Part shown: piece after piece, positions 24,999 through 36,094 of the stretch | How the letters are laid out: the number at the start of each line of letters is the position of its first letter | How positions within the stretch are numbered: the first letter of the stretch is position 1 | Assembly (NCBI RefSeq): GCF_011174775.1 | Contig: NZ_JAANHS010000001.1 | Coordinates: 248,001-312,000, forward strand | Length of the DNA: 64,000 nt | Source: Rhodobacter calidifons | GTDB lineage: Bacteria; Pseudomonadota; Alphaproteobacteria; Rhodobacterales; Rhodobacteraceae | Reading direction: 5' to 3' | Translations under genes and position numbers: made by a program | The notes under the pieces: model-generated | Told to the model about the DNA's origin: nothing | Database searches by the model: none | Seen by the model: the letters and a program-made list of their open reading frames with translations, nothing else

Positions 24999-25072
24999 TG
25001 GAGCGGGCGGCGGGAATCGAACCCGCGTCTCCTGCTTGGAAGGCAGGGGTCTTACCATTACACAACGCCCGC
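24999..25072 (-). tRNA. tRNA-Gly(UCC)
   Basis: On the minus strand: acceptor GCGGGCG/CGCCCGC, D-loop with AATGGTA, anticodon arm CTGCC-TTCC-AAGCAG reading UCC, T-arm GCGGG-TTCGATT-CCCGC, discriminator T and encoded CCA. All four stems pair. The 74-base length with CCA is normal for tRNA-Gly. Confidence 0.93.
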
Positions 25073-25301: not shown

Positions 25302-25458
25302 GAGTTCGACCGCGTCACCTGCAAGTGGCAGCACCTGATCGAGACCCTCATTGAAAAAGCGCAAGGAATTCGGAAGCATCGCCACGCGGTGCTGCAAGAC
25401 AGACAGGATTTTCTGTGCCTTCATCGCAGTCGCTGCGACAGTCATTCGCCTCGGGTGA
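25298..25458 (+). pseudogene. IS5-family transposase C-terminal remnant, frameshifted
   Basis: One frame reads 'FDRVTCKWQHLIETLIEK' and, after a shift near 25354, the next frame reads 'KEFGSIATRCCKTDRIF' then 'CAFIAVAATVI' up to TGA at 25458. Together these match the conserved IS5-group transposase end (KWRHLIEN..., LKEF.RIA.R.DKTD..F...I.LAA.VI). The N-terminal three quarters are missing. The remnant overlaps the last codons of the oiaC-like gene on the other strand. The rest of 25073-25224 shows no gene. Confidence 0.6.
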
Positions 25459-26353
25459 ACGTCGACAGGCCCTGGTCATCACCAGACGCTGACCGCGCCA
25501 CCCACTCGAGCGAACTGCGCACGGCTGCAACGACTGCGCTGTCCGAGGGAACCTCTTCTCGGCGCCTGGGATCGCCGTGGGCCGGGCGCCACAGCCGGAT
25601 GGGATGCTCGATCCCGAGGGGCACGTCTGGCGGAATGGCTGCGAGCGGCACGTCTGTTCCATAGCCGACATCGCCCTGGCCCACCGGGCAGAACACCCAG
25701 TCTCCGGCGACATCCCTGAGGTCCTTCAGGTGGAGATGGGCTGCGACCGGAAGTGCGGCGCGCAAATCTTCGGCTGCCGACGCGCGGCGCGCACCGTAGG
25801 TCAGTGCATTGCCGATGTCATAATTCAGCCTTACCCAGGGGCTGTCGAATGCGGCAACCACCGCGGCGCCGCGCACGCCGTCCGGGATCAGCGCGTCCGA
25901 TCCATGGCCGGGATTCTCGAGCGCAAGCGTCAGGCCGGCCGCCGCAAGGTCGGGCAGGACAGCGGTGACGACCCTACGGAAGTCCTGGGTGCGATCAGCG
26001 GTCGTGGCATTGCAGATCAGGATCCGCGCACCGAGCGCCGCCGCAAATCCGATCCTCCGGCGCAGCTTTTCGTGGCTGTCGGGACTGCCCAGGTCGGTAT
26101 GGGCCGAGACTGCATGCACCGTAAGGCCGCTGACCGCGATCAGGCGCGCAAGCCTTTGCGCGCGCGATTCACGGAAGCTGTCCTCGTCGAAGGCCATGTA
26201 TCCTTCGATATAGGCAGGTTCCACCGCGACAGCACCGGCCTCCGCCAGAAGCGCGAGTCCGTGCTCCAACGGCCTGCCGTCCAGGACGACAGTTGAAACA
26301 GCAACATTGACGAGAGGGTTTAACAGCGGGGGTTGGGGGGGTGACACTGGCAT
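25442..26353 (-). CDS. oiaC: TIM-barrel sugar epimerase/isomerase-like protein, probable 3-oxo-isoapionate decarboxylase
   Basis: A 303-residue xylose-isomerase-like TIM barrel ('VAVEPAYIEGYMAF', 'LALENPGHGSDALI', 'LNYDIGNALTYG', 'AHLHLKDLRDVAGDW', with E, D, H and E positions typical of the metal site). In D-apiose clusters this family supplies OiaC, which decarboxylates 3-oxo-isoapionate to L-erythrulose. The call rests on the apnO-apnL-apiose dehydrogenase neighbours; from sequence alone only the fold is certain. The start at ATG 26353 lacks a clear ribosome site. Its 3' end overlaps an IS remnant. Divergent from apnO across an AT-rich promoter. Confidence 0.6.
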   Translation of the reverse strand: MPVSPPQPPLLNPLVNVAVSTVVLDGRPLEHGLALLAEAGAVAVEPAYIEGYMAFDEDSFRESRAQRLARLIAVSGLTVHAVSAHTDLGSPDSHEKLRRRIGFAAALGARILICNATTADRTQDFRRVVTAVLPDLAAAGLTLALENPGHGSDALIPDGVRGAAVVAAFDSPWVRLNYDIGNALTYGARRASAAEDLRAALPVAAHLHLKDLRDVAGDWVFCPVGQGDVGYGTDVPLAAIPPDVPLGIEHPIRLWRPAHGDPRRREEVPSDSAVVAAVRSSLEWVARSASGDDQGLSTFTRGE

Positions 26354-26439: not shown

Positions 26440-27282
26440 ATGACACGACCGGTCGCGGTTCTGGGCGCTGGTGGCAAAATGGGATTTCGCGTCACCAAAA
26501 AGCTCTTCGACGCAGGATATGACCTGCGCGCGGTCGAGATCGGCGAAGTCGGCCGGGCGCGGCTCGCCGATGCGGGTATCACGGCAACGGATGCTGCCCA
26601 TGGCCTGCCGGGCGCCGAGGTCGTGGTGCTGGCGCTGCCGGACAACATCATCGGCAGGGTCGCGGCCGAGATCGCGCCCAGCCTGCCGGCAGGAACCATG
26701 CTGCTGATCCTCGATGCGGCCGCGCCTTATGCCGATGTCCTGCCCAAGGACCGTCCCGACCTGACCTATTTCGTCGGTCATCCCTGCCATCCGCCGCTCT
26801 ACAATGACGAGTCGGACTGGGAAGCCCGCCGGGACTACCATGGAGGGGTGGCCAAGCAGGCGATCGTCTGCGCCCTGATGCAGGGGCCGGAAGAACACTA
26901 TGCGCTCGGCGTCGAAATCTGCGAGGCGATGTGGTCGCCCGTGACCAGGACCCATCGCGTCAGTGTCGAGCAGCTAGCGATCCTCGAGCCTGGCCTGTCG
27001 GAAATGGTTGCGATGTGCATGATCGACGCGATGACCGAGGCGGTCGAGGAATGCGCGACCCGCTACGGGATCGACCGAGAGGCGGCGAAGGACTTTCTGA
27101 TCGGGCACCTGAATGTCGAGATCGCGATGTGGTTCGGCTATTCGCCCAAGGTGCCGTCGGACGCCGCGCTGCGCCTGCTGGAATTCGGCAAGTCGCGGAT
27201 CATGCGGCCAGACTGGCGCGAGGCCCTTTCGCCCAAGGTGGTCCGTCAGGCCGCCGATCTGATCGTCCACGGAAAGATATGA
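26440..27282 (+). CDS. apnO: Probable D-apionate oxidoisomerase (6-phosphogluconate dehydrogenase-like)
   Basis: 280 residues. An N-terminal Rossmann fold starts 'VAVLGAGGKMGFRVTKKL', followed by 'VVVLALPDNIIGRV' and a helical C-terminal domain with 'FVGHPCHPPLYNDES' and 'HLNVEIAMWFGYSPKVPSDAAL' (cut: HLNVEIAMWFGYSPK). The general family is phosphogluconate dehydrogenase-like. In D-apiose pathways such a protein (ApnO) oxidises and rearranges D-apionate to 3-oxo-isoapionate with NAD. The adjacent lactonase and dehydrogenase genes support this. It has GGAGAGG upstream of ATG 26440, and apnL begins four bases after its stop. Confidence 0.68.
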   Translation: MTRPVAVLGAGGKMGFRVTKKLFDAGYDLRAVEIGEVGRARLADAGITATDAAHGLPGAEVVVLALPDNIIGRVAAEIAPSLPAGTMLLILDAAAPYADVLPKDRPDLTYFVGHPCHPPLYNDESDWEARRDYHGGVAKQAIVCALMQGPEEHYALGVEICEAMWSPVTRTHRVSVEQLAILEPGLSEMVAMCMIDAMTEAVEECATRYGIDREAAKDFLIGHLNVEIAMWFGYSPKVPSDAALRLLEFGKSRIMRPDWREALSPKVVRQAADLIVHGKI

Positions 27283-27286
27283 AGCC

Positions 27287-28897
27287 GTGACGGACTGGCA
27301 TGAACAGGCGGCGATCACGCTGGGACGGCTTCGTGCGGTGATCCGCCAGGGCGAACTGCGCGGACTCTGGTTTGCCGGGCGCGAGGTCTTGCGCGGCCTG
27401 TCCTGTCCTGTGCGCGATGCGGATTGGGGAACCGTTCCCGTCGTCACCTCGGCCGAGGAGGTGGAAGAAAACAGCTATCTTCGCCGCTTCGACGAAAGGC
27501 TCGGCCGGTTCCGGGGCACCTTTCGCGTCGAGGCAGAGGCCGAAACCCGCATTCGCTTTGCTCTCCGGCTTGCCGTTGACCGCGACATGGAGGTGAACCG
27601 TGCCGGTTTCGTTGTGCTACATCCCCTGGCCGAGGTTGCAGGCACCCCGATGACCGTTACCCATTCCGACGGTTCCCGGTCCGAGGCCGCCTTTCCCGAA
27701 CGCATTGCCCCGGCGCAACCGGTGGGCGGGATCGCCGGGATCGCACATCGCGTCGGTCCGGTGTCGGTCGGGCTGACTTTCAGGGGCGACATCTTCGAGA
27801 TGGAGGATCAGCGCAACTGGTCGGATGCCAGCTTCAAGACCTACTGCCGGCCGCTGTCGCTGCCACGCCCCTATGTCATTGCGGCGGGCAGCGAGATCGT
27901 TCAAGAGATCACGTTGGAACTGGGCCTTGCGGCAGAGGTGCCCCCGCCGCGGCCGCAGCCGGTGGCGGGTATCTGGCGACTGCCGCAGGTTCTGCTGGCG
28001 CATGAACCGGGGCTGTCGTCGCTGCGGGGGTTGGCGGCCTTCCCGGGTGTGCCGGTCCTGCTGCGGGTCTCGGCAGCGACACCCGAGGTCGAGATCGCCG
28101 CTCTGGCCCAGCGGGCAGATGTGGCGGTCGAGATCCTGTTCGACGATCTGGCCGATCTGGACGCCCAGGCAGGGCGGTTGCTGCACCTGGGACTGCGGCC
28201 GCTGCGGGTCGTCGCCCTGCCGCGCAGCTATCTCGCCAGTCATCAGCCCGAGGGCCCTTGGCCCGACGGCCCCGCGCCGCGCGACGCAATCGCGCCGTTG
28301 CGCGCGGCCTTTCCCGGCGTTCCGGTCGGCACGGGAAGCCTGACCAACTTCACCGAATTCAACCGCTGCCCGCCGGACCTTTCGGCCGACTACGCGACCT
28401 TCGGCACGACCGCGATCGTGCATGCCGCTGACGACGACTCGGTCATTGCAACGCGCGAAGCCCTGCCGGCCATCTTCGCCTCGGCCAAGGCCCTCGCCCC
28501 AGGCAAACCGCTGCATCTGGGGCTCTTTTCGATCGGCATGCGGTCGAACCCCTATGGCCGGTCGGTGGTGCCCAACCCCGACGGGCTGAGACTGCCGATG
28601 GCGATGGTCGATCTCCGCCAGAGGACCGGCTTTGCTGCGGTTCATGCGTTTGGCGTGCTGGCCGCTGCGGCACGAGCCGGGGTCGAAAGCGTTTCGCTGG
28701 CGATGCCCGATGGCCCGCTCGGTGCCGAAGGCACACCGCTTGGTGCACTGATCCGCGCCGTCGCGCCATTGGCGGGGCGAACGGCAACCTGGCGCGAGAC
28801 CGTCTCGGGCCCCAGCATGACAACCGATGGTCTGTCGATCAGAACCGATGGCCCGGAAAGGCTGGAGGTCGCACCACGACTCTGCGGGGTGCCCTGA
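27287..28897 (+). CDS. apnL: Probable D-apionolactonase
   Basis: 536 residues, cytoplasmic. An N-terminal beta-rich domain (about 1-200, with 'LRGLWFAGREVLRGLSCPVRD' in pieces: GLWFAGREVLRG, 'MEDQRNWSDASFKTYCRPL'), a TIM-barrel-like middle (about 220-440, 'GTGSLTNFTEFNRCPP') and a small C-terminal domain. This three-part layout fits ApnL, which opens D-apionolactone to D-apionate. GTG start at 27287, immediately after apnO. Its last 22 bases overlap the start of the next gene if the latter begins at ACG 28876. Confidence 0.65.
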   Translation: MTDWHEQAAITLGRLRAVIRQGELRGLWFAGREVLRGLSCPVRDADWGTVPVVTSAEEVEENSYLRRFDERLGRFRGTFRVEAEAETRIRFALRLAVDRDMEVNRAGFVVLHPLAEVAGTPMTVTHSDGSRSEAAFPERIAPAQPVGGIAGIAHRVGPVSVGLTFRGDIFEMEDQRNWSDASFKTYCRPLSLPRPYVIAAGSEIVQEITLELGLAAEVPPPRPQPVAGIWRLPQVLLAHEPGLSSLRGLAAFPGVPVLLRVSAATPEVEIAALAQRADVAVEILFDDLADLDAQAGRLLHLGLRPLRVVALPRSYLASHQPEGPWPDGPAPRDAIAPLRAAFPGVPVGTGSLTNFTEFNRCPPDLSADYATFGTTAIVHAADDDSVIATREALPAIFASAKALAPGKPLHLGLFSIGMRSNPYGRSVVPNPDGLRLPMAMVDLRQRTGFAAVHAFGVLAAAARAGVESVSLAMPDGPLGAEGTPLGALIRAVAPLAGRTATWRETVSGPSMTTDGLSIRTDGPERLEVAPRLCGVP

Positions 28898-29865
28898 TCG
28901 GCTGCGGCTTCCTCGCCCGGAACCACATGCGCGGGTGGGCGGAAATCGACGGCGTGCGGATCGTCGCGGTCTGCGATACCGACCCCGCAAAGGCCCGGGC
29001 CTTCGCCCTCGATTTCGGTGCCCTGGCCTATACCGATGCCGGCACGATGCTGGCAGAGGTGAATCCCGACTTCACCGACATTGTCACGACCGTCGCCGCG
29101 CATCGGTCGCTGGTCGAACTTGCGGCACGTCACAGCCGCGGCGTGACCTGCCAGAAGCCCTTTGCCGAAACGCTTGACGATGGCGATGCGATGGTCGCGG
29201 CCTGCGCAGCGGCCGGAGTCCCGCTTCTGGTGCACGAGAACTTTCGCTGGCAGTCGCCCTATCGCGCACTCGGGGCCGCACTGGCCGCGGGCGCCATCGG
29301 TGCGCCGCGCTTCCTGCGGCTCAGTTTCCGGCATGCCTTCGACATCTACGCCAACCAGCCCTATCTGGCCGAGGTCAGGGACCTTGCCCTGGTTGATCCC
29401 GCGGCTTGGGAAAAGGTCTGTCGCGCGGCTGAAGAGGCTGCAACCGCGGCGCTTGGCAGCGGACAGAGCGTCATCCTCGCCTCGGCACGCGGTCCCGATG
29501 ACCCGGCGCTTGCCGCGGCGCGAACGGCATATCGGAGCAGCGGCCTGTCGGTCCAGGCAGCGACCGCACGGTTGGGGGCGGGGTTCGGCCGCACCTTGCG
29601 CGGACTGCACGACCGTCGCGCGGCATCGCGCTTCGCCGTCGCAGGCGGCGACACGTCGAGTTTCGCCACCCGGGCCTTCGGAGCCGTGGCGCTGACCGCA
29701 GAGGCCGAGATCGCGCCCGCGGTGCCGCTGATGAAGGCACACTTTCACCAGGCTGACGCCGCCTGCGACTGGATCGTCAAAGGCGGCCAGATGGGCCCAG
29801 AGGACCTGTTCGTGCGCATGCGCGACGGGGTGGCCCGATCAGACCCGGAGGCGCGCCTCGCGTAG
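28876..29865 (+). pseudogene. In-frame chimera: N-terminal half of a D-apiose dehydrogenase joined to the C-terminus of a DUF1537 (OiaK-like) kinase
   Basis: Residues 1-174 are a Gfo/Idh/MocA dehydrogenase: 'RGALIGCGFLARNHMRGW', 'VTCQKPFAE', 'VHENFRWQSPYRAL', 'QPYLAEVRDLALVD'. From about 29397 the protein becomes the C-terminal domain of a four-carbon acid sugar kinase: 'SVILASARGPDDP', 'FAVAGGDTSSFATRAFG', 'IVKGGQMGPEDLFVRMRDG'. The second half of the dehydrogenase and the first two thirds of the kinase are missing (about 1.4 kb if adjacent). No ATG, GTG or TTG covers the NAD-binding motif; the expected start codon reads ACG (28876) with GGAGG seven bases upstream. ATG 28927 would lose the dinucleotide loop. 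Neither activity is expected to be complete. Confidence 0.75.
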
Positions 29866-29905: not shown

Positions 29906-30907
29906 ATGAAGCTGCTGAGAACCACCGCCACCCTGGCCCTGTTGTCCGCAGGTGCGACCTTCGGGTCGGGCGCACAGGCGGCGAACATCTGCTTTGCGTT
30001 CCAGGATCTGGAAACCGAGTTCTGGGTCGCCGGCCACAAGGCGATCACCACCACGCTGACCGAAGCCGGTCATAAAGTGATCGAGAAGAACGCCATCGAA
30101 GACGCCAACAAGCAGCTGGAACAGGTGCGCGACTGCATCGCCCAAGGGGTCGACGGCATCATCCTGATCCCGCAGGATGGCGAAAGTGCCGTGACGATCG
30201 TGAAGGAGGCGCAAGCGTCCGACAAGCCGATCGCCGTGTTCAACCGGCCGCCGACCGACCTGTCCAAGGGCATCATCGTCGTCGCCGACAACGCAACCAT
30301 CGCCGAGGCCGCAACCGACTTCGTGGTGGAGCAGGCGCTGGCCGGGGCACCTGCCGATGCGAAGCTGAACGCCCTGATCATCGTCGGCGACCTCGGCGAC
30401 CCCAACGCCGTCGGCCGCAAGGACGGCTTCTACGCTGCGATCAACAAGCATGCCGACCGCTTCAACGTGATCGAGGTGGCTTCGGAATGGGACGCGGCGA
30501 CGGCTCTGGCCAACCTCGAGGCGGCGGTGACGGCGAACCCGAAGATCGACCTGATGTTCACCTCTTCCGATTTCCTGTTCCCGACGATCCGCTCGGTGCT
30601 TGAGCCGCGCGGCATGTGGAAGAAGGCCGGCGAAGACGGACACATCCCGCTGGCGGGGCTCGACGGCGACGCGACGGCCTGCAAGCTGATCAAGGAAGGC
30701 TATGTCTCGGCCACCGGCGTGCAGGACCTGTATTTCGAGGCCGAGTCGGCGATGAATGCGATCCTGAAGGCGGTCGAGACGGGCAATGCCCGGCCGAACG
30801 AGGTGATCCCCGATCCCGGCTTCGCTCTGACCCAGGCCAACCTTGGCAAGCGCGAGATGGACATGTGGGGTTGCGTCCTCTTGTCGGAAGGCTTCCTCGA
30901 CAAGTAA
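29906..30907 (+). CDS. Sugar ABC transporter periplasmic binding protein (RbsB type)
   Basis: 333 residues with a signal peptide (about 1-25, ending AQA) and a Peripla_BP_4 fold: 'GVDGIILIPQDGESAVTIVKEAQ' (pieces GVDGIILIPQDG, IVKEAQ), 'AVFNRPPTDL', 'PLAGLDGDATACKLIKEG' and 'SATGVQDLYFEAESAM'. It should capture a pentose-like sugar, plausibly D-apiose from the context. Strong AAAGGGAGG before ATG 29906. Intact, unlike two of its neighbours. Confidence 0.85.
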   Translation: MKLLRTTATLALLSAGATFGSGAQAANICFAFQDLETEFWVAGHKAITTTLTEAGHKVIEKNAIEDANKQLEQVRDCIAQGVDGIILIPQDGESAVTIVKEAQASDKPIAVFNRPPTDLSKGIIVVADNATIAEAATDFVVEQALAGAPADAKLNALIIVGDLGDPNAVGRKDGFYAAINKHADRFNVIEVASEWDAATALANLEAAVTANPKIDLMFTSSDFLFPTIRSVLEPRGMWKKAGEDGHIPLAGLDGDATACKLIKEGYVSATGVQDLYFEAESAMNAILKAVETGNARPNEVIPDPGFALTQANLGKREMDMWGCVLLSEGFLDK

Positions 30908-30974: not shown

Positions 30975-32102
30975 ATGACCTTTTCCCCCACACCGCAGCG
31001 ATCCGTAAGAGACCGGGCAGCCGACCTGTTCCTGTCGGATTATTTCGTGCTGTACATGTCGCTTGCCTTCATCGCGGTCCTGGCGCCGTTCCTGCCGACC
31101 TTGCTGACGCCCAGCAACGCAGTGAACATCCTGTCCAACATGTGGCCGCTTCTCATCGTCGCCATCGGGCAGACCTTCGTGCTGGCCATCGCCGGGATCG
31201 ACCTCAGCCAGGGCGCGGTGATTGCCTTGACCTCCGTGATCGGGGCGGCGCTCATCACGCTGGTTGCTGACCCGGTCGTCCTGTCCAAGGCCCCGCTCTG
31301 GGGCAGCGTCATCACCGAGAACGGGGGGCCGCTCGCCGGGGTCGCTGGCGGCATTGCCGTTGCGATCATCGTGATGCTGACGCTGGCGGCGTTGATCGGC
31401 CTGCTGAACGGCCTGGCGATTGCCGTGCTGGAAATGCCGGCCTTCATGGTCACGCTGGTCAGCATGATCACGATCAGCGCGCTTGCCATCTACCTCACAC
31501 AATCAGAGAACATCGCGCAACTTCCCAAAGGTTATGTGGCGCTGGGCAAGGGCGATATCGTTTCGGTCTACTTCGGGGCCAAGGAGACGCCGCAACTGCC
31601 ACGCAAGCAGGTGTTTTCGCTTGTCACTTATCCGATGGTCATCGCCGTTACGATGGCGATCCTTGCCCATGTGCTGCTGAACCGCACCGTCTTCGGCCGC
31701 CAGATCCTCGCCATCGGCCAGAACCGCAAGGCGGCCGAGATTTCCGGCGTGCCGGTGCGGCGCGTCATTGTCCTTGTCTTCATCGTCTCGGCCGTCTTTG
31801 CCGCAGTTGGCGGCATCCTCTACTCCGCCCGGCTCGAGGCTGGTCGGCCCACCTTGGGCGAGGGCACGTTCCTGCTCGACGTGATCGGGGCGACGGTGAT
31901 CGGCGGGACCGGCCTGTTCGGCGGCAAGGCAAAGATCATATGGACACTGTTCGGCGTCTTGTTCTTTGTCCTCCTGTCCAGCGCGCTCGGGGCGATGAAC
32001 CTGTCGGCGTTCCAGGTGGACATGATGAAGGGTGCCGTGATCCTTGCCGCAGCCCTGCTTGACGTACTGCGGACGCGGATCATGCAGGATCGCGCAAGAT
32101 GA
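30975..32102 (+). CDS. Sugar ABC transporter permease (RbsC family)
   Basis: 375 residues with about ten hydrophobic segments. The family core 'FVLAIAGIDLSQGAVIAL' and 'GLLNGLAIAVLEMPAFMVTL' (cut: GLLNGLAIAVLEMPAF), the coupling region 'RQILAIGQNRKAAEISGVPV' and the closing 'DVIGATVIGGTGLFGG' are present. It is full length. The ATPase gene overlaps its stop by four bases (ATGA), showing tight coupling. A second permease is present only as a fragment fused to the ATPase. Confidence 0.88.
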   Translation: MTFSPTPQRSVRDRAADLFLSDYFVLYMSLAFIAVLAPFLPTLLTPSNAVNILSNMWPLLIVAIGQTFVLAIAGIDLSQGAVIALTSVIGAALITLVADPVVLSKAPLWGSVITENGGPLAGVAGGIAVAIIVMLTLAALIGLLNGLAIAVLEMPAFMVTLVSMITISALAIYLTQSENIAQLPKGYVALGKGDIVSVYFGAKETPQLPRKQVFSLVTYPMVIAVTMAILAHVLLNRTVFGRQILAIGQNRKAAEISGVPVRRVIVLVFIVSAVFAAVGGILYSARLEAGRPTLGEGTFLLDVIGATVIGGTGLFGGKAKIIWTLFGVLFFVLLSSALGAMNLSAFQVDMMKGAVILAAALLDVLRTRIMQDRAR

Positions 32103-33319
32103 CCGCGCTTCTGTCGCTCGACGGTCTGGGCAAGACCTGGTTCGGAGTGTCCGCGGTGAAGGACCTCACGCTCGACGTGGCCGAGGGCCGCCTGCTTGGC
32201 CTGATCGGGCAGAACGGCGCGGGCAAATCGACGCTGATGAACATGATCGGCGGGGTGGTCCAGCCCAGCAGCGGTGCCATGCGCTGGCGGGGGGCACCCT
32301 ACGCTCCGCAATCTGCCGGCGACGCCGCACGGACCGGGATCGCCTTCATTCACCAGGAACTGAACCTCTTCACCAATCTTTCGGTGGCGGAAAACCTCTA
32401 TATCGACGGCTTCCCCCGCCGTTTCGGCCTGATCGACTGGTCGACGATCCGTCGGCGCAGCACCGAAATCCTGAGGCGCCTGGCGCTGGATCTGGACCCG
32501 GATACGCCCATCGGTCGGCTGTCCCCGGGTGAGCGGCAGCTTGTCGAGATCGCGAAGGCGCTGCACAACGACGCCCAGCTCATCATCTTCGACGAGCCGA
32601 CGACCTCGCTGACCCTGCGTGAGACCGCCCGGCTGTTCGAGACCATCGCCGCGCTGCGGGCCGAAGGCCGGACGATCATCTACATCAGCCATATCCTCGG
32701 CGATGTGCAGCAGCTGGCGGACGATATCGGCGTGCTGCGCGACGGCCAGCTGGTGGACAGCGGACCGGCCGCAGAGTTCACGGTGCAGCGCATGATCCGG
32801 TCGATGATCGGACGCGACCTCGGTGGCCTCTACCCCCCGCGCAGCGCCACCCCGGGCAGCGCCACGGTGCTGGAGGCGCGGGGGCTGACCCAGCCCGGCG
32901 TGCTTCAGGACGTGTCGCTGACGGTCCGCGCGGGCGAGCTGGTCGGGCTGTTCGGCCTGATGGGCGCGGGAAGGTCGGAACTGGCGCGCATCCTCTGCGC
33001 CGCCGTCGCCGGCACCATCATGATCGCGCAGATCGGTCGGCTGGATGCGGGCTTCGGCGAGGGCCGCGAGTTCGACGTCATCGCAGCTGCGGTGTTGGGG
33101 GGAGCCAGCCTCTTCGGCGGGGTCGGTTCGGTCTGGGGCGCCGTGCTCGGCGCCACGCTGATCCAGACCGTCAAGCTTGGCCGGGTGTTCACCGGGGTCA
33201 ACCTTTATCTCCAGCCCATGATGCAAGGTCTGATCATCCTGATTGCCGTTCTCGCCGACGGTGTGCGGGAAAAGCGGCTCAGGCTGCTCCTGAAGCGGCG
33301 GATCCGCCCGGCTGGGTGA
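32099..33319 (+). pseudogene. In-frame chimera: sugar ABC ATPase joined to the C-terminus of a second RbsC-type permease
   Basis: Residues 1-300 are an RbsA/XylG-type ATPase with complete first domain (Walker A GQNGAGKST, signature LSPGERQ, Walker B LIIFDEPTTSL) and the start of the second domain (GLMGAGRSELARILC). At about 33000 the frame passes into a permease end: 'GTIMIAQIGRLDAGFGEG', 'AAAVLGGASLFGGVGSVWGA', 'LQPMMQGLIILIAVLAD'. The rest of the second nucleotide domain and about two thirds of a permease are missing (about 1.3 kb). The soluble-to-membrane fusion would hardly work as either component. Confidence 0.75.
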
Positions 33320-33406: not shown

Positions 33407-34159
33407 ATGATGAAAGAACCGATCGAACGCCGTCGCCTCTATCAGGAGGTCATGGATCGTATCATCGCCATGATCGAGGATGAGGGCCTCAGACCGGGCG
33501 ACCCGCTTCCTGCCGAACGCGAATTGTCCGAGCGCTATTGTGTCGGCCGCCCCGCCGTGCGCGAAGCGCTGCAGAACATGGCGCGCATGGGCCTGATCAG
33601 GCTTACCCAGGGCGAACGTGCCAAGGTCGCCGCGCCGACCTTCGCCAATCTCCTGAACTCGATGTCCCTGACGACAAGCGGAATCCTACGGTCCTCCGGC
33701 CACGGACTCGATCACCTCAAGGAAGCGCGCCTTCTGTTCGAGGTGAACATGGTCCGGTTGGCAGTCGAAAGGGCCACCCCGGAGGATATCGAGAAGCTTG
33801 AACAGCGCTTCAACGACCAGCAGAACAGCCTGCCGGACATGGTGCAGTTCGTGAACTGCGACATGCTCTTCCACAGCGAAATTGCCCGGATCACCCGCAA
33901 TTCCATCTTTCCGGCCCTGAGCGAGGCCATGTTCGGGTGGCTTGCCGAATTCTACACCCACCTCGTGCGCGTTCCCGGGACCGAGCAGCTTACACTGCAA
34001 GAGCACGCCGCGATCCTAGCGGCCATCAAGGCCAGGGATTCCATACGGGCCGAACGCGCGATGACCGAGCATCTGACCCGCGCCAACACGCTCTACCAGC
34101 GGTTCGCGGAACGGCAGGTCTCTGCCGGCGCGAGTGAACCCCGGTCGCAGGGCTCCTGA
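33407..34159 (+). CDS. GntR-family regulator, FadR/FCD subgroup
   Basis: 250 residues. The N-terminal winged helix has 'PGDPLPAERELSERYCVGRPAVREAL' (cut: LPAERELSERYCVGR), the C-terminal all-helical FCD domain has 'LKEARLLFEVNMVRLAVERA', 'MLFHSEIARITRN' and 'EHAAILAAI' with His residues typical of the metal/ligand pocket. It is the likely regulator of the sugar cluster and the candidate binder of the GTATAC dyad upstream of apnO. ATG 33407; second Met follows at once. The following 260 bp (34160-34419) show no gene. Confidence 0.85.
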   Translation: MMKEPIERRRLYQEVMDRIIAMIEDEGLRPGDPLPAERELSERYCVGRPAVREALQNMARMGLIRLTQGERAKVAAPTFANLLNSMSLTTSGILRSSGHGLDHLKEARLLFEVNMVRLAVERATPEDIEKLEQRFNDQQNSLPDMVQFVNCDMLFHSEIARITRNSIFPALSEAMFGWLAEFYTHLVRVPGTEQLTLQEHAAILAAIKARDSIRAERAMTEHLTRANTLYQRFAERQVSAGASEPRSQGS

Positions 34160-34925: not shown

Positions 34926-35447
34926 TTACTTCATCAGGTCGGCGACCGGAATGGGCGCCGAGATCGTCCACTCGTCCACCACGCCGGGCTTGCCGTTGCT
35001 GGTCTCGACGATCAGGTAGCGGGCCTGGTTCTGGTGGTGCAGCTCGCTGGTGAAGGTGCGCGGGCCGAAGAGCGTGGGCTCTCCGTTCATCTTCTCCAGT
35101 TCCGCCACCACTGCGGCGGCCTCGGTGGTGCCAGCACGTTCCACCGCCTTCGCCCAGACGTCGACCAGCACGTAGCCCGGATAGACATACTGCGTCGAGG
35201 GGTCGCCTCCGGTGGCTTCCTTGTACTTGGCGTTGAAGGCCGTCACTTCGGGGTTCGGGTCGTCGCCGTAGATCGAGCCCTGGACCGGGACAAAGAAGTT
35301 GGACAGATCCGGCACCGCCGACAGCCAGTAGCTGCCGTCCACACCCGAGCCGTTGAGGATCATCGAGTTGATGCCCGCTGCCCGCAGCTGCTTGATGGCC
35401 GAGACCGCGCCCGGCATCATCGTGCAGAGCATGATCGCATCAGGCTC
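34926..35447 (-). pseudogene. C-terminal fragment of a branched-chain-type ABC substrate-binding protein (livK-like)
   Basis: About 173 residues from 'EPDAIMLCTMMPGAVSAIKQL' (cut at 20: EPDAIMLCTMMPGAVSAIK) to 'APIPVADLMK' and TAA at 34926. This is the second lobe of a type I binding protein ('NGSGVDGSYWLSAVPDL', 'YPGYVLVDVWAKAVERAG'). The signal peptide and first lobe are absent. Upstream the DNA belongs to livM in another frame, so this is the product of a deletion and has no start. Confidence 0.75.
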
Positions 35448-36094
35448 TTGTTCACGCCGCTTGCGGCGGCGGCGGTGGGTTCGTCCCGCGCGGCACGCAA
35501 GGCAAGGCCGTAGCGGCTGATCGAGAAGGCCCAGGCGACGAAGACAGCAAGGATCGCGGCGACCAGATAGGGCCAGAGGCTGCGGATGATCGGGATGCCG
35601 ACGACGGATGAGGTGGCGGCGGTCACGCTCGACCAGTTGGAATAGATCGCGTTCACCATGGCCAGCATGGCGAAGGTCGCGATCGAGGCCGCGATGCCCG
35701 AAAGCCGCATCAGGACTGCGCCGAAGACAAGCGCCCAGAAGGCGGCGAAGGCTCCGCCCGCGATGGCCGCGCCCCAGAACGGGATCTCCAGCTGCGTCAG
35801 CCAATTGGGCAGGCCGGGCATCGCCATGCCCTTCATCATCGGCTTGATCGTGGTCCAGGCCGCGACATAGCCGCCGAGGCAGGCAAAGGCGATGTGGCCG
35901 AAGCTGATGACACCGGAATTGCCGATGAAGGTGTATAGCCCGACGACAAAGATCACCTGAAGGAAGATGTCGATCACGGTCTGGTTGAAGGGCCGCGACC
36001 CGGCGAACCAGGCGACCAGTGCGAAGGCCACCAGCAGCGCCGACAGGATCAGCGGCGTGGCGATGGTGCGGCGCAGGATCGAGGGACGGGCCAT
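35417..36094 (-). pseudogene. Branched-chain-type ABC permease LivM, truncated at the 3' end
   Basis: 225 codons. The N-terminal two thirds is a normal LivM: hydrophobic spans, 'FIGNSGVISFGHIAFACLGG' and the coupling segment 'GLALRAARDEPTAAAASGVNK'. After GVNK (about 35447) the frame enters livK sequence out of frame and stops nine codons later (SLMRSCSAR). The missing part is the last 110-130 residues. Start ATG overlaps the livH stop by one base. Confidence 0.78.

Follow-up and report, generated by a model that had tools for sequence, protein, structure and literature searches.

An apparent dehydrogenase-kinase fusion gene of Rhodobacter calidifons is very probably a chimeric pseudogene within a decaying D-apiose operon

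Does an open reading frame (ORF) that begins as a sugar dehydrogenase and ends as a sugar-acid kinase encode a new two-domain enzyme, or is it what remains of two genes? The question is raised by positions 28876-29865 of a 64,000-nucleotide stretch of Rhodobacter calidifons DNA (the window, to which positions refer unless a contig is named: G000:C11:248001-312000), taken from a draft assembly of 3.62 Mb in 59 contigs that is rated 99.99% complete. Here, the front of a D-apiose dehydrogenase (ApsD) is joined to the back of a 3-oxo-isoapionate kinase (OiaK). The ORF is very probably a chimeric pseudogene that recent deletions made within a horizontally acquired D-apiose operon now in decay, and the locus looks like a case of ordinary recent gene decay and not like a new kind of protein.

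The single frame, on the forward strand, encodes 329 residues and is uninterrupted by stops. Pfam assigns its front half to GFO_IDH_MocA (PF01408, residues 4-119, E 1.3e-18) and its back half to NBD_C (PF17042, residues 166-312, profile positions 27-168 of 168, E 5.4e-21), and the NCBIfam model of OiaK (NF042436) places the back half on positions 313-450 of 451 with 81 bits, the cut-off of 700 bits being set for whole proteins. When each half is aligned with six full-length relatives, residues 1-174 correspond to ApsD up to the sequence DLALVD, just ahead of GLHLFD in the relatives; OiaK homology begins a few codons after ApsD homology ends and then continues to the end of OiaK. The match to the best solved relative (5uhw and four further entries, 345 residues) is confined to ORF residues 1-170. 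A preliminary description of the ORF, made from the sequence alone, had read it as a Gfo/Idh/MocA dehydrogenase that turns at about 29397 into the C-terminus of a DUF1537-type kinase, the former lacking its C-terminal half and the latter its N-terminal substrate domain. Pfam, NCBIfam, the 5uhw match and the alignments to both families confirm this reading: the dehydrogenase ends at about residue 174 and the kinase resumes at about position 313 of 451.

The dehydrogenase part aligns almost without gaps to ApsD (EC 1.1.1.420, Gfo/Idh/MocA family, 5uhw group) at up to 76% identity and includes the GCGF, QKP and HENFRW motifs; complete relatives also have GLHLFD, the C-terminal half and a methionine start, whereas the ORF has none of these and starts with ACG. 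Absent from the ORF is thus the C-terminal catalytic and substrate domain with the histidine of GLHLFD, which we take to be the catalytic residue of ApsD. The kinase part is 37-50% identical to complete OiaK proteins (EC 2.7.1.231, PF07005 plus PF17042) from ten loci with the gene order apsD-oiaX-oiaK and keeps NBD_C with its GGDTS and KGGQMG motifs, while Pfam finds in the ORF neither the SBD_N domain (PF07005) nor the first 26 positions of NBD_C.

The start of the frame is also unusual. The ACG at 28876 stands six nucleotides behind a GGAGGT, at a position occupied by methionine in all six aligned ApsD relatives. The first ATG, GTG or TTG of the ORF, at 28927, is downstream of the GCGF nucleotide-binding motif, and no standard start codon within the ORF preserves this motif. 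ACG may act as a weak start codon; a product initiated there would still miss the second half of the dehydrogenase and the substrate domain of the kinase. As a standard start and both of these parts are missing, the ORF is very unlikely to encode a working enzyme.

A family of natural proteins with the same fusion, which the preliminary description had named as the sign of a real architecture, was not found in plasmid records, in genomes of the family, among the best 80 of 478 relatives or in 94 apsD loci. Among the matches listed, none of 335 matching plasmid records covers 80% of the ORF, and 68 of 394 family genomes match at E 1e-25 (one of them the source genome), none with a fusion; most of these matches stop at about residue 175 or before it, the strongest at ORF residues 174-176, and five weaker ones extend to 240-248. 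The best 80 of the 478 relatives all match the dehydrogenase half, and one reaches residue 203. In four loci with long or doubtful alignments (L035, L037, L041 and L107) the kinase half alone has no significant match (best E 1.4); this recheck did not include G219 and G055. The best dehydrogenase match listed for the other 31 genomes of the genus is just 37% identical. Gene order was read with reference proteins in the 94 loci (a few contigs are duplicated, and other genes are invisible to such a reading): oiaK is the next searched gene after apsD in none of them. The preliminary description had stated that the two are separate genes in D-apiose operons.

How much is missing between them? The order apsD-oiaX-oiaK occurs in 10/94 loci, transporter genes follow apsD in another 10/94, and in 13/94 no searched gene follows; oiaK stands directly after oiaX in 69 of the 76 loci that have oiaK. 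In the ten apsD-oiaX-oiaK loci, the edges of the apsD and oiaK pieces are 2632-2703 bp apart, versus 6 bp here. Since oiaX lies between apsD and oiaK in all ten relatives with this order, the stretch missing at junction 1 is probably about 2.65 kb (2.63-2.70 kb) and would include oiaX; the 1.4 kb of the preliminary description is probably too small. That oiaX once stood at exactly this spot we infer from these relatives. A base-exact reading of junction 1 was not reached, because the kinase relatives are too distant. The lost pieces do not turn up elsewhere in the assembly: the N-terminal kinase domain SBD_N (PF07005) has no match across all contigs, and L059 DNA that covers the missing stretch gives matches of just 35 and 26 bases, in a search of limited sensitivity (the ApsD of L059 is about 69% identical).

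Whether the one match to RuBisCO-large in the genome, at G000:C11:24.8k, could be an oiaX that has moved was examined and answered in the negative: the frame of 373 residues is intact, encodes a different protein and gets higher scores from other models than from that of OiaX. This RuBisCO-like protein (L135 1231-3353, about 24.3-26.5 kb of G000:C11) is below every NCBIfam cut-off and lies beside the second half of a split transketolase.

Two further deletions follow junction 1 within 6.1 kb. The ORF at 32099-33319 is a second in-frame chimera, composed of about residues 1-300 of the 499 residues of a sugar ATP-binding cassette (ABC) transporter ATPase and the last 105 or so residues of permease 2. 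The gap between the two pieces is 1277-1307 bp in 12/12 loci that passed a filter (both pieces more than 50% identical and less than 4 kb apart; 12 passed of 86 loci searched) versus 27 bp here. At 35449, three genomes of the same genus (G002, G025 and G012) have an extra 1.08-1.10 kb between collinear flanks of 81-88% identity, and the matches listed for three more (G006, G015 and G018) imply, by hand, about 1.07-1.08 kb. The comparison with close relatives that had been proposed for the ORF fixed junction 3, by G002, G025 and G012, and the damage is wider than the preliminary description had it. At each junction the missing segment is collinear in relatives (three same-genus genomes for junction 3, 12 loci for junction 2 and 10 loci for junction 1) and its absence is private to the source genome. 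By coincidence, two joins out of three preserve the reading frame, so that the remnants resemble fusion genes; the chance of at least two is about 0.26 (calculated by hand) and thus unremarkable.

The setting of the operon points to acquisition. In G003 and G001, about 1.3 kb separates the backbone sequences that flank 24.6-49.06 kb (24612-49062) here, and a tRNA-Gly gene is present in the window; by these two features, the stretch of about 24 kb is accessory as a whole. G002 matches the right part of this stretch (34.4-48.9 kb), from 35449 onward over 13.4 kb without a break. For its left part (about 25.5-34.3 kb), which contains the apiose operon, there is no DNA match in other genomes of the genus among the matches listed, with few candidates scored per genome. 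No exact repeat of at least 11 bases was found between the two island ends and hence no att-like pair.

The explanation that we prefer, as very probable, is the following. The D-apiose operon was acquired and is part of the accessory stretch beside the tRNA-Gly gene. It was damaged by separate deletions. One of them cost apsD its second half and oiaK its first two thirds, probably together with the whole of oiaX; another took the second part of the sugar ABC ATPase gene along with most of permease 2; a third, in the adjoining transporter of the branched-chain-amino-acid type, removed where livM ends and livK starts. The function of the operon may have been lost before the large deletions occurred, or the deletions may themselves have caused the loss. 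We infer that a complete operon once stood here and that the cell has lost the use of D-apiose by this route.

The remaining genes of the operon fit this picture. The original description of the D-apiose pathway is reportedly that of Carter et al. 2018. The PF16896 protein encoded at 26440-27282 is presumably the D-apionate oxidoisomerase, and the homologue of the D-apionate lactonase ApnL scores under the cut-off of its model NF049900, as does the Shinella copy. Background on the pathway comes in part from PMC6302742. According to PMC11747546, the Rhodobacteraceae strain LCG007 grows on D-apiose and has a cluster of lactonase, dehydrogenase, oxidoisomerase, kinase and decarboxylase. Measured against this cluster, the window has near-intact homologues of the lactonase and of the presumed oxidoisomerase; the dehydrogenase and kinase are remnants, the transporter is broken and the decarboxylase gene was not found. 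The window thus holds no complete five-step D-apiose set: dehydrogenase, kinase and importer are broken and a decarboxylase was not found.

A fourth deletion, at the border between lactonase gene and apsD, was considered and dropped. The distance from the end of the lactonase query to apsD is 92 bp here (by hand, from the last whole codon; 90 bp by script, with a partial codon) and 134-311 bp in 16 loci within the kept range, the lactonase tail being variable. The ApnL frame stops a few codons beyond the apsD start position and its phase matches that of relatives in which the lactonase stop overlaps the apsD start by four bases, as it does in 6/8 loci checked; a start-codon scan (8/20 with the four-base overlap) settled on an internal GTG in several loci, and its tally was set aside. 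A non-standard start behind a normal ribosome-binding site explains the short distance better than a fourth deletion.

The damage is probably recent, as suggested by the surviving pieces, which carry neither internal stops nor frameshifts; apart from the ACG start, no small lesion was seen. At columns that are at least 95% conserved, the four remnants deviate in 5/224 positions and five intact genes in 10/479 (sums by hand). Ranked by deviation rate among relatives, the apsD remnant is 10th of 82 and the oiaK remnant 5th of 64, while the regulator, an intact gene, is 2nd of 57; the high ranks of both remnants qualify the low overall erosion. Bacterial pseudogenes are lost by deletion, according to PMC2916853: the genes described there are, as here, disrupted and apparently young, while at the present locus most lesions are large deletions that cluster within a single acquired stretch.

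Does the source genome simply lose DNA more often than others? In collinear stretches of the source genome (G000), G003 and G009, segments of 40 bp or longer that are missing from one genome alone number 5 in 202,460 bases, 1 in 203,373 and 4 in 203,660, respectively. Little sequence could be aligned for comparison sets E, F and G, which were left out, set C22b aligned over 37,700 bases, and an earlier, smaller comparison had given 3, 2 and 2 such segments in 95,813, 91,958 and 96,935 bases. Segments with an edge inside a frame that is coding in both relatives number, by script, 1, 0 and 1. One more was added by hand for G000 (a permease on contig C33, missed by the frame filter), resulting in 2 per 202 kb; as this check was done for G000 alone and events missed by the filter in G003 and G009 are unchecked, the rates are not strictly comparable. 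Against this background, 0.065 coding-cutting private deletions would be expected in 6.6 kb, versus 3 here; the chance of about 4e-5 (calculated by hand) shows clustering and not its cause, an accessory stretch being under different selection. The C33 permease came to light in a genome-wide truncation test with PF02653 (27 matches, one more broken permease), and the source genome is thus not free of deletions outside the locus.

Several observations weigh against a decaying operon as the source of the ORF. All evidence comes from one assembly of one strain. Junctions 1 and 2 are placed less firmly than junction 3 because the nearest apsD is just 76% identical, and oiaX and oiaK are elsewhere or unseen in the 10/94 loci with transporter genes after apsD, which bears on the placement of oiaX. 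Coding-cutting private deletions also occur elsewhere in the source genome. The remnants are overall no more eroded than their intact neighbours, so that the age estimate rests mainly on an absence, and three large deletions with one small lesion are unusual for slow neutral decay. This last pattern, three breaks within 6.1 kb and hardly any small lesions in a draft of 59 contigs, is also what would be seen if the genes were complete in the genome and three segments had been skipped by the assembler or during gap closing. We consider such an error quite improbable: there is no repeat at the readable joins, which share about 1 bp (junction 3) and about 2 bp (junction 2), the missing pieces were not found on other contigs, and 5 private missing segments in 202,460 bases compare with 1 and 4 in the two relatives. 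Real deletions are favoured because the breaks cluster in one acquired stretch, the joins are near-blunt and the lost pieces are absent from other contigs. Of the two possibilities that the preliminary description had left side by side, a join of apsD to oiaK across a deletion in a decaying locus is supported, by the two further deletions and the lack of a match for the lost pieces, while assembly collapse of the repeat type is unlikely, with about 1 bp shared at the one junction whose edges close relatives fix and comparable breaks rare in 202 kb of the assembly.

Alternatively, the apsD and oiaK remnants could have come in on two separate fragments that differed in gene order and were joined on arrival. 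The region does look acquired, and gene order is highly variable among relatives, with many different genes after apsD. The order on both sides of junction 1, however, fits L048 and L049 (ApnL, ApsD, OiaX, OiaK, PGDHC, substrate-binding protein, permease 1, ATPase, permease 2), and the collinearity at junctions 2 (12/12 loci) and 3 (three genomes) means that deletion operates here anyway, which makes a joint of this kind unlikely. A functional protein that combines the NAD-binding Rossmann half with the ATP-binding half of the kinase in a new role would explain the open frame without internal stops, the GGAGGT ahead of the ACG and the fact that the surviving residues are mostly still conserved. 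Yet no standard start retains the nucleotide-binding motif, everything from GLHLFD onward and the entire SBD_N are gone, no relative with the fusion was found, neighbouring genes are broken likewise and two or more in-frame joins out of three are no rare outcome; we regard this explanation as extremely improbable.

If the ORF is a pseudogene made by deletions, as we prefer, the three deletions might stem from one episode, in which newly acquired DNA was broken and rejoined almost bluntly and independently of Ku. The density of 3 deletions in 6.6 kb versus 2 in 202 kb, the 1-2 bp shared at readable joins, the lack of stops and frameshifts and the lack of a Ku match in the source genome (8/32 genomes of the genus carry Ku) are consistent with this idea, to which we give a low probability. 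Classical end joining is unlikely, given the lack of a Ku match. A single episode would mean that clustered, Ku-independent end joining can quickly disarm a foreign operon, as opposed to slow one-by-one decay, and would have implications for the repair of breaks in incoming DNA by bacteria that lack Ku. Whatever its timing, the locus is a clean case of in-frame deletions that produce convincing but false fusion genes, and neither 28876-29865 nor 32099-33319 should be annotated as a multidomain enzyme or transporter of a new kind. It would also show an acquired plant-sugar operon early in its loss, with large deletions preceding most point lesions.

Table 1. Features of the D-apiose operon and its surroundings (positions in the window)
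Feature	Positions	Strand	Basis and remarks
tRNA-Gly	24999-25072		beside the accessory stretch
Xylose-isomerase-like TIM barrel protein, intact	25442-26353	-	PF01261 at protein positions 33-232; no NCBIfam match
Phosphogluconate-dehydrogenase C-terminal family protein (PGDHC), intact	26440-27282	+	PF16896, E 6.8e-62; 43% identical to Shinella copy, residues 4-272 of 280
D-apionate lactonase (ApnL) homologue, near intact	27287-28897	+	NF049900, E 4.2e-96; 49% identical over 6-501 of 545
GGAGGT, Shine-Dalgarno-like	28864-28869	+	6 nucleotides before ACG at 28876; read directly
apsD remnant, confined to the Rossmann half (residues 1-174) and lacking a standard start	28876-29397	+	Pfam, alignments, 5uhw match
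Junction 1, apsD to oiaK	29392-29403	+	alignments, locus distances; about 2.65 kb, with oiaX, probably missing; not base-exact
oiaK remnant, reduced to the nucleotide-binding domain at the C-terminus (last 140 or so residues, about 313-450 of 451)	29398-29865	+	Pfam, alignment, NCBIfam
Sugar ABC transporter substrate-binding protein, intact	29906-30907	+	77% identical to Shinella apiose-cluster copy, 1-334 of 334; PF13407
Sugar ABC permease 1, intact	30975-32102	+	66% identical, 1-375 of 375
Sugar ABC ATPase remnant with the first nucleotide-binding domain and the beginning of the second (about residues 1-300 of 499)	32099-32996	+	Pfam, relatives
Junction 2, ATPase to permease 2, in frame	32995-32996	+	1.25-1.28 kb missing (about 1.26 kb); about 2 bp shared by eye
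Sugar ABC permease 2 remnant, C-terminal 105 or so residues	32995-33319	+	67% identical over 213-325 of 329; PF02653 positions 188-269
GntR/NanR-type regulator, intact	33407-34159	+	NF003011 above cut-off
LivK-type binding protein, reduced to its C-terminal half and lacking a start	34926-35449	-	PF13458 positions 187-342 of 343; collinear with G002, G025 and G012
Junction 3, LivM/LivK, out of frame	35449	-	1.08-1.10 kb missing; about 1 bp shared by eye
LivM-type permease remnant, frame continues to stop at 35417	35449-36094	-	PF02653 positions 8-179 of 269

The TIM barrel protein at the left edge of the operon (Table 1) also borders the apiose operons of L051, L055, L057, L060 and L065; in L051, L057 and L065, oiaX and oiaK were not seen in the stretch examined. 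Our assumption, as an idea only, is that this protein may supply an alternative decarboxylation step.

The broken permease on contig C33 (L151 at about 8513, G000:C33 at about 200.5 kb) is of the nucleoside ABC type; it has lost about 170 bp in the source genome alone, as all five relatives compared show. Its frame runs on into a gene that, by eye, resembles purine nucleoside phosphorylase, as we presume. Further partial matches to PF02653 permeases are at G000:C22:244561-244914 and G000:C44:65884-66249, one of them with an internal stop.

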